A stretch of DNA of 46,905 nt from contig CADBKG010000009.1 in NCBI GenBank assembly GCA_902795215.1, positions 1-46,905 on the forward strand, written 5' to 3'. A program made the translations under genes and the position numbers. Every line of letters starts with the position of its first letter. Position 1 is the first letter of the stretch. Below the pieces are notes generated by a model. The model did not search any database. It was not told the origin of the DNA and saw only the letters and a program-made list of their open reading frames with translations. This document shows, piece by piece, positions 1-2,152 of this stretch. The DNA is from an uncultured Erysipelotrichaceae bacterium. Lineage in GTDB: Bacteria > Bacillota_I > Bacilli_A > RF39 > UBA660.

Positions 1-39
1 TAGTGAATATGAAGAAAATTTTTGACCTTTTTTTGCCAT
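1..39 (-). CDS. IS3-family transposase OrfA-like, first 13 codons only
   Basis: Only the first 13 codons are inside the window (MAKKGQKFSSYSL). The KKGQKF start followed by a helix-turn-helix region is typical, as I recall it, of OrfA proteins of IS150-like elements, which bind the IS ends. The ATG at 39-37 is preceded by GGAGGTG with about nine bases between. That ribosome site is inside the 3' arm of a perfect hairpin (45-70). Family assignment rests on 13 residues plus the terminal repeat, so it is tentative. Confidence 0.5.
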   Translation of the reverse strand, partial: MAKKGQKFSSYSL

Positions 40-44
40 AGAAA

Positions 45-76
45 AATACACCTCCTTTCGGAGGTGTATTATATCA
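45..76 (-). promoter_or_regulatory. IS promoter -10 overlapping a hairpin that hides the transposase ribosome site
   Basis: On the minus strand an 11-bp perfect stem (70-60 with 55-45) closes on a GAAA tetraloop and is followed by a short T run, so it can act as a terminator. Its 3' arm contains the GGAGGTG site of the transposase. An extended -10 (TGATATAAT, hexamer 73-68) overlaps the 5' arm. A transcript from this promoter should start near 61, after almost the whole 5' arm. Only read-through RNA from upstream would fold the hairpin. No good -35 is seen. Confidence 0.55.
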
Positions 77-139
77 CTTTTATAAAACTGCTTTTTTTTA
101 TGCTGTCTACTCTAAGGGGTGCAGTTCATACATAGCTTT

Positions 140-2152
140 TTAAAATAACTTAAATAAATAATAGAAATAATAGAACTTGGCTGGTGATGATGATTTTAGT
201 GATGCCGTAGCGTCGTAAAACATTCCAAAGAATTCATATAACATTGACATAAATATTAGAACTAAACATGCATTTATAAATATTCTTTTGTATTTTGGTT
301 CTTTAATTGCATTATAAATAGTATATAAAATTATTATTGTTGCAAGAATTAACATCCATGCATAATCCAAATGATATCTTGGAAGTATTCCACTCATCTG
401 TGTATCAACAAGTATTACAATTAAACTTGAGATTATTAAAAATCTTACAATTCTATATAATTTTTGATCCTTAAATAATTTTTTGAATTTATAAAAAACA
501 ATAGTAATTACTGTTATTATATGAGTAAAAATAAAACCACCATACATAGTTTCATATGTTGTATATCCTATGTAATTACTAAATAGTTTCATGCCTTCTA
601 CATAAGGGAAAGTTAGTGTCATATTAAATGGCATGAATAAATAATACATTATACCTATTGGCCATCTTGCAAATACAAATCCTCTATGAGTCATATCATT
701 AGTTGTTAAATTATAATTTGCCCCAAAATCAAATGGTGATCCAAATCTAGCATAATTATAACCCATTGTTATACTTGCTACTATAATATAAGGAATTATA
801 ATTGCTAAGAATTCCTTATATTTACTTTTTTTGAATTCTTTTTTATTTTTAAAGAAATAATCATAATAAAGAGGAATAAAAATTATAGTTGCTATTAAGA
901 ATTGAGGCCTTGATAAAGCCGTTAATGCCATAAGTGTAGATCCAATAGCTAGTTTTGTTTCAGTAAGCTTTTTATTTTCACTAGCATCGATAATTAACGC
1001 AAGACCTAAAGTCACTATAAATATACTCATTATAATTGGAATTGTATATAAATCCGGCCTTTTTGCTGCAAATATTGTTCCACAAGAGAAAAACATTAAG
1101 ATAAACGTAAGCATATACATACCGAGTGACATGTTTTTAAACCATTTTTTACATATTATATATAATAAGTATCCAACAGATATTATAGACATAAGTGCTA
1201 AAATAAATGCTACAACATAATTATCAATATGTGTGCCTGTTATAACATAATATGGTAAGTATATAAGCATTACCGGTAATGCACCAAAGTAAACATAGTA
1301 CTTTCCTTTATAATAAGCATAATCCCATAAATAATCTTCGCTAGTAATAAAATGAGCTTTTTTTCTGGCACCATAATCATATGGATTATCCATAACTTGT
1401 AATGCTTTAGATGGTGTTTCATCAATATAAACTTGTCCCTTATAGAATGCTTCTGTAAGCTTTTGATATTCTAAAGAAGTATCTAATGCTCTAGTTTTAA
1501 ATAAAGGATTAATGTTGACTGCAAATATACATAAAGAAACCATAACTAGCATTAATGCTACCACATAGAAATAACTATCTTCATCGAGTAATTTTCTTTT
1601 ATAAAGACTTGAACTTGGTCTAAACAAATAGAAAAACGCTACTACTCCTAATATAAACATAAACCTTACAAATGAAAACATAAACGGAATTTTTGAATTT
1701 AAAGATATTTTATTGATTTTTAATCTATGCCCATTTAAGCCAGAAAAATATATTTCCATGCTATCTGACTTTCCACTTAAATACAAATTATGATAAGTGC
1801 TCCTTTTTGTTTTAGTATTAATATTAAAAGTAGGCAATTTAAGTTTTTCACTGTTGGCTTCATCAGTTGCATATATAGTTACATCTATGACTTCTTCTTT
1901 TTTTGTAGAATCTTCAACATCGACATTTATTGTATTAATCTTTTCGTTTAAATTATCAAAGTATATACATGCTTTTGATGAATTAGAAATAGTATAACTA
2001 CCATCATTATTAATATCTAACCCTTCACAAATTTTATAATGTGTTTCAACTGGCCTTAATAAACGGGTTTTAAAAAAATTAAAATTAAATATAAAAGTTT
2101 CTATGAGTATAGTGATAATAATAATTTTTAATAATGATTTATATTCTTTCAT
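140..2152 (-). CDS. GT-C fold membrane glycosyltransferase-like protein
   Basis: The 670-residue polytopic protein has one N-terminal membrane segment (about 8-28), an extracytoplasmic beta-rich domain (about 35-150), then about ten further membrane spans to the C-terminus. Around residue 470 it has a YNYARFGSPFDFG stretch, a pattern common in PMT/ArnT-like GT-C enzymes that use a lipid-linked sugar donor on the outer face. Donor and acceptor cannot be told. Start: ATG at 2152 with AGGGTGA seven bases upstream, which overlaps the stop of the SEL1 gene 11 bases away, so the two genes are co-transcribed. There is no terminator of its own before the IS end at 128. Confidence 0.6.
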   Translation of the reverse strand: MKEYKSLLKIIIITILIETFIFNFNFFKTRLLRPVETHYKICEGLDINNDGSYTISNSSKACIYFDNLNEKINTINVDVEDSTKKEEVIDVTIYATDEANSEKLKLPTFNINTKTKRSTYHNLYLSGKSDSMEIYFSGLNGHRLKINKISLNSKIPFMFSFVRFMFILGVVAFFYLFRPSSSLYKRKLLDEDSYFYVVALMLVMVSLCIFAVNINPLFKTRALDTSLEYQKLTEAFYKGQVYIDETPSKALQVMDNPYDYGARKKAHFITSEDYLWDYAYYKGKYYVYFGALPVMLIYLPYYVITGTHIDNYVVAFILALMSIISVGYLLYIICKKWFKNMSLGMYMLTFILMFFSCGTIFAAKRPDLYTIPIIMSIFIVTLGLALIIDASENKKLTETKLAIGSTLMALTALSRPQFLIATIIFIPLYYDYFFKNKKEFKKSKYKEFLAIIIPYIIVASITMGYNYARFGSPFDFGANYNLTTNDMTHRGFVFARWPIGIMYYLFMPFNMTLTFPYVEGMKLFSNYIGYTTYETMYGGFIFTHIITVITIVFYKFKKLFKDQKLYRIVRFLIISSLIVILVDTQMSGILPRYHLDYAWMLILATIIILYTIYNAIKEPKYKRIFINACLVLIFMSMLYEFFGMFYDATASLKSSSPAKFYYFYYLFKLF

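Follow-up and report, generated by a model that had tools for sequence, protein, structure and literature searches.

How can the transposase gene of a mobile element that lies directly behind a host gene stay silent when RNA from that gene runs into it? The question is raised by the first 128 nt of the window, by which we mean the whole stretch of 46,905 nt analyzed here, taken from the draft genome (1.34 Mb, 37 contigs) of an uncultured Erysipelotrichaceae bacterium. The window represents the end of contig C9, and an insertion sequence (IS) is present there only as these 128 nt. A second copy in the same genome (C22:1-127) was 99% identical and had the same left end. On the minus strand, an ORF for a membrane protein stops 11 nt before the IS tip (Table 1). 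The first-pass annotation had described it as an adjacent glycosyltransferase gene reading in the direction of the element; the common direction was confirmed, but the assignment as glycosyltransferase was not, as the ORF had no Pfam or NCBIfam match. In an Rfam search of the window, a tRNA was the sole match.

The same annotation had proposed an 11-bp perfect stem with a GAAA loop, the Shine-Dalgarno (SD) site in its 3' arm and an extended -10 overlapping its 5' arm. All of this could be read exactly from the minus strand: positions 70-60 and 55-45 formed 11 of 11 pairs, and the extended -10 (76-68), composed of TG (76-75) and the hexamer TATAAT (73-68), overlapped the 5' arm by 3 nt. An A-run was located between the left inverted repeat and the extended -10. 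The minimum free energy of 72-37 was -17.6 kcal/mol versus -3.7 ± 1.9 kcal/mol for shuffles (z = -7.2, 0 of 200 as stable). The IS tip TGAACTGC (121-128, minus strand) recurred inverted at 84-91 as GCAGTTTTA, in relatives as GCAGTTCA. In predicted read-through RNA this inner repeat pairs with the tip, perhaps as a second hairpin; a site for the transposase is another possibility.

Table 1. Features at the left end of the insertion sequence in the window and in its upstream flank.
Feature	Position	Strand	Remark
Left terminal inverted repeat of IS3-family element, TGAACTGCACCCCTTAGAGTAGACA	104..128	-	tip = 128
Predicted resident promoter, extended -10 TGATATAAT	68..76	-	read from sequence
Hairpin 5' arm (anti-Shine-Dalgarno), AATACACCTCC	60..70	-	nearly all upstream of predicted +1
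GAAA hairpin loop	56..59	-	read from sequence
Predicted transcription start	61	-	inferred from -10, 6-nt discriminator; plausible range 62-58
Hairpin 3' arm, GGAGGTGTATT	45..55	-	contains Shine-Dalgarno GGAGG(TG) 55-49, GGAGG = 55-51
Terminator-like U-run past hairpin core, five U	42..46	-	sequence
OrfA codons 1-13 (MAKKGQKFSSYSL)	1..39	-	ATG 39-37; truncated at contig end
Probable left half of split host terminator (AAAAAGCTATGTA)	129..141	-	analogy to 33 loci with both flanks and to the C12/C22 site
Co-directional upstream membrane-protein ORF, 670 aa	140..2152	-	TAA = 142-140; transcript would enter IS

Because the window retains only 13 codons of the element, the family was taken from relatives sharing the same end, by which it is assigned to the IS3 family (IS150-like). 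These relatives were 1.2-1.5 kb long and contained two ORFs, OrfA followed by OrfB, in different frames. OrfB of one relative (L012) matched the IS3-family model NCBIfam NF033516 with 184 bits (cut-off 160) and contained the Pfam domains rve and HTH_21. OrfA was a short helix-turn-helix protein whose two ends (MAxKGQKF... and KERYEILKKYQAFLKAQRERK) were strongly conserved, whereas its middle was very variable (alignment A1), which perhaps reflects target or end specificity. OrfA of the close clade had no match in plasmids and only a weak local match in phages. The inverted repeats of the relatives read TGAAxTGCACCCC.../...GGGGTTCACATCA, and the right end GGGGTTCACATCA was also present at C12 of the window's own genome. 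In most intact copies of the relatives a target duplication of 3-4 bp was observed.

In a DNA search of 147 relatives, 25 genomes were matched, of which the best ~16 had the full end, and an OrfA-led protein search added 80 further loci; the carriers were Bacilli-type draft genomes from gut and rumen. Disappearance of the stem from the majority of copies, named by the first-pass annotation as one refuting outcome, was not observed: an SD-burying hairpin (median 13 bp, a 4-nt loop in most) with compensatory changes was found in 80 of 82 non-redundant related left ends, although the copies are related to one another, and neither this count nor the pair counts below represent independent events. 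L119 lacked the hairpin and L111 was recombined; both are decayed copies, as is L015. The loop was GAAA in 57 of 59 fixed-register relatives. Two geometries were distinguished. In type I ends (65), the -10 adjoins the 5' arm or overlaps it; type II ends (~15; e.g. L099, L107, L109, L113, L118) have it within the hairpin loop as TATAAT, TACAAT, TAAAAT or TAGAAT.

The SD core was constant, and its flanking pairs changed on both sides, from ACAC/GTGT to ACTA/TAGT, AGTA/TACT or AGCA/TGCT. Where a G-C pair within the SD was replaced by A-U (GGAGA), the partner had changed too. Two to four Watson-Crick types were found, for example, at offsets 3, 5, 6 and 7 of type I and at offsets -6 to -3 of type II, and single-sided changes were mostly C to U facing G. 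Pairs were counted from per-sequence stems; the MAFFT alignment A2 was left out, as it misregisters longer loops. At the fourth pair from the loop, fixed-register type I ends had U-G in 45 cases and C-G in 13, and a slightly weakened stem seems to be preferred.

With +1 set 7 nt past the -10 (6-nt discriminator), the predicted start of the window copy was position 61, in line with the earlier proposal of a start near 61 that omits almost the whole 5' arm. For 76 of 80 related ends, the predicted +1 was located between the arms, leaving the self-made RNA with 0-3 of ~13 stem pairs. The predicted median cost of opening the SD was 11.5 kcal/mol in read-through RNA versus 2.4 kcal/mol in self-made RNA and 2.2 kcal/mol in controls (100 genes from the same loci); for the window, the values were 16.5 and 4.6 kcal/mol. 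These predictions agree with the earlier claim that the SD is hidden in read-through and free in self-made RNA, even though accessibility is not uniformly high, as weak folding elsewhere is predicted for some self-made RNAs. The TGnTAnAAT box was retained in relatives despite variation in the facing arm and was, therefore, probably kept as a promoter; the -10 was damaged or shifted in L015, L062, L076 and L103, and no good -35 was found for the resident promoter. In this comparison, a lock function is best supported by the fact that the predicted +1 keeps its place between the arms although the geometry changes.

In cultured Bacillaceae, relatives (L128, L129, L131, L134; Cytobacillus, Mesobacillus, B. 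subtilis, Niallia plasmids) had ATCCCCT... in the inverted repeat against GGAGGGGAT. Here, the SD seems to be buried by the inverted repeat itself, in what looks like a third solution. The same four also had a further inner hairpin. Two distant IS3 elements (L132, L133; Bacillus badius and Enterococcus faecalis plasmids) had GTGTCC by the start codon, complementary to an upstream GGACA(C), possibly another version of the lock.

The flanks of the elements followed a common layout, with an A-run and a half-stem left of the tip and the complementary half-stem and a T-run right of the element. When the flanks were joined, 22 of 33 loci gave a hairpin, with a minimum of 6 uninterrupted Watson-Crick pairs and 2 G-C among them, compared with 12 of 1056 mismatched flank pairs (~1%); the A-run was present in 32 and the T-run in 31 of the 33. 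Copies in terminator loops were L049, L050, L053, L064, L069, L073, L079, L082, L084, L089, L107-L109 and L117. Such a site was also found in the window's own genome (C12:~34180 and C22:128), where the left flank at C22 fits the right flank at C12, giving AAAAAAGCTAGTA-TAT-TACTAGCC with TAT as duplication; the C12 gene has its stop codon directly before this site. From this fit we infer that C12 and C22 border the same copy. The right half of the split terminator for the window copy is absent from the assembly. For a natural empty site, the genus of G028 was searched; it offered a single homologous gene end, whose divergence was too great for a reading. Both ends of the family (e.g. L064) also contained an inner A- or T-tract beside GCAGTT/AACTGC, resembling the A-tract and half-stem of the targeted terminators.

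A gene end at most 100 nt away and reading into the left end was found in 50 of 67 loci. An apparent orientation bias (53 toward, 9 away) was rejected after both flanks had been read: the 28 loci with two flanks comprised 13 with convergent genes, 8 with a gene end on the left only, 6 on the right only and 1 with neither, so that at least one gene ended at the IS in 27 of 28. Judged from these flanks, the target is the 3' end of genes, often a bidirectional terminator, without clear orientation bias, and the elements occupy the loops of intrinsic terminators, mostly splitting them. As they sit in terminator loops just after genes, incoming outside RNA is likely their normal situation.

We consider it likely that the left end acts as a start-site-dependent lock on transposase translation that matters at terminator insertions, and that the hairpin may also terminate. 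RNA begun outside the element would carry both arms, which would bury the ribosome site and in many cases the start codon too, and little transposase would be made. RNA from the weak extended -10 of the element would begin between the arms, lack the anti-SD arm and be translatable. Since insertion into the loop of an intrinsic terminator splits the latter, outside RNA would probably enter by default, and the lock would matter because the elements insert in terminator loops after genes. Terminator insertion, which the first-pass annotation did not mention, thus supplies a possible reason for the switch.

That annotation had expected incoming transcripts to be silenced or stopped. Silencing is supported by the accessibility predictions, whereas stopping is no more than plausible, the U-run being somewhat poorer than in host terminators. 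The hairpin fits the rule for intrinsic terminators, having a GC-containing stem followed by a U-run of 5-6, and may additionally stop incoming RNA. Possibly, although we doubt it, the left-end hairpin serves mainly as an intrinsic terminator at which incoming RNA ends ahead of the transposase gene, with burial of the ribosome site as a by-product of the shared 3' arm. Its terminator-like form, with a U-rich tail in nearly all ends, would suit this role, and for an insertion that breaks a terminator, bringing one would be host-neutral. However, the T content in the 8 nt after the hairpin (median 6) was below that of split host terminators (median 7), several copies had tails like ATTATAATG or TTTACTATG, and in many copies the stem reached across the U-run and the start codon, which fits burial better. 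The U-run is also the normal A/T-rich spacer ahead of an ATG. By sequence, termination by hairpin and U-run is plausible, if weaker than at the split host terminators, and the two may form a replacement terminator.

It is unlikely that the hairpin works in the element's own mRNA, as a thermosensor or as a general brake, in RNA begun further upstream, e.g. at a promoter formed at the IRR-IRL junction of a circle. IS3 elements generally form circles with a junction promoter, and the IRR contains a -35-like TTCACA. In a consensus search, however, no circle-junction promoter was seen: the IRL had no -10-like hexamer at the proper spacing, and the best junctions scored 6-8 (possible: 12 hexamer matches plus one for TG). 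Moreover, such a start would give no reason for a conserved extended -10 in or against the 5' arm, or in the loop of type II ends.

Even less probable is that the inverted repeat is a DNA operator for a dimeric repressor such as OrfA, serving autoregulation. OrfA does contain a helix-turn-helix, the repeat overlaps the -10, and a dyad operator would likewise show two-sided changes. However, symmetric scoring of G-U and A-C mispairs gave 101 G-U versus 8 A-C (44 versus 7 on distinct stems), a strong excess on the sense strand. This strand asymmetry is unexpected for a DNA dyad; therefore, the sense RNA, not the dyad, is judged to be what is selected. In agreement, loop length and arm position varied from 3 to 18 nt among non-redundant ends, and the arm sequence followed the SD rather than a protein site. 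Chance pairing beside a strong SD, for which only the shortness of the motif speaks, is virtually refuted by the shuffles, the control genes, the covariation and an exact pattern scan of the class (395 genomes), in which 7 genomes matched and two non-IS chance matches (L035, L036) occurred.

Beyond the start-site-dependent lock, we tentatively suggest that this IS3 clade may be specialized in intrinsic terminators, and that one sequence of 26-40 nt could re-terminate the host gene, block transposase synthesis from host RNA and start the element's own RNA, with the 3' arm serving as ribosome site and the 5' arm or the loop as promoter. If true, the left end would be a portable replacement terminator brought in by the insertion. 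The lock itself would show, in compact form, how mobile DNA can persist amid its neighbours' transcription without being switched on, with promoter, ribosome site and hairpin in one short sequence that comes in two geometries in one clade and apparently a third in cultured Bacillaceae. By inserting into terminators, the elements would occupy places harmless to the host yet exposed to read-through, and the switch could serve as a small genetic part reporting the origin of an RNA.

In the open literature, where subscription papers are poorly covered, no account was found of a ribosome-binding-site (RBS) lock or of terminator-loop targeting in IS3 elements. The logic is already known from IS10 and IS50; an RBS lock with an embedded promoter in the IS3 family appears undescribed there. 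IS200 differs in its HUH transposase and in having two separate structures, with the RBS stem in the element's own mRNA, whereas here a single structure would be absent from self-made RNA. Shared with the present elements are, at the IS200 5' end, a terminator acting on impinging RNA and a stem that occludes the RBS (as cited in PMC3196728). In ISPpu9, which inserts in palindromic REP sequences, the RBS is likewise hidden by a 5' structure (PMC8450116), but that hairpin is part of the normal tnp mRNA and is opened by an antisense sRNA (PMC8450116). IS1397 and ISKpn1 of the IS3 family also have palindromic targets, which are REP sequences and not intrinsic terminators, and no RBS lock is seen for them in the accessible text of PMC1525189. 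TnSha1 and IS1272 (IS1182 family) insert in terminator hairpins (PMC4923244). There, the stem is cut with partial deletion and without duplication, whereas the elements described here insert at the loop or close to it and duplicate 3-4 bp.

E. coli IS150 has similar inverted repeats (TGTACTGCACCC...) and the IS3 organization, but its 47-nt leader contains neither an SD-burying hairpin nor an embedded -10; therefore, the hairpin is not general in the IS150 group. In IS10 (Tn10) and IS50 (Tn5), a hairpin in outside RNA buries the ribosome site of the transposase, and one of its arms is missing when RNA begins at the inner promoter. The logic of protection from outside transcription would thus be the same, whereas those elements have an IS4-family transposase and a pairing arm near the tip, and in the elements described here the promoter is embedded in the arm or the loop of a tight hairpin that adjoins the start codon.
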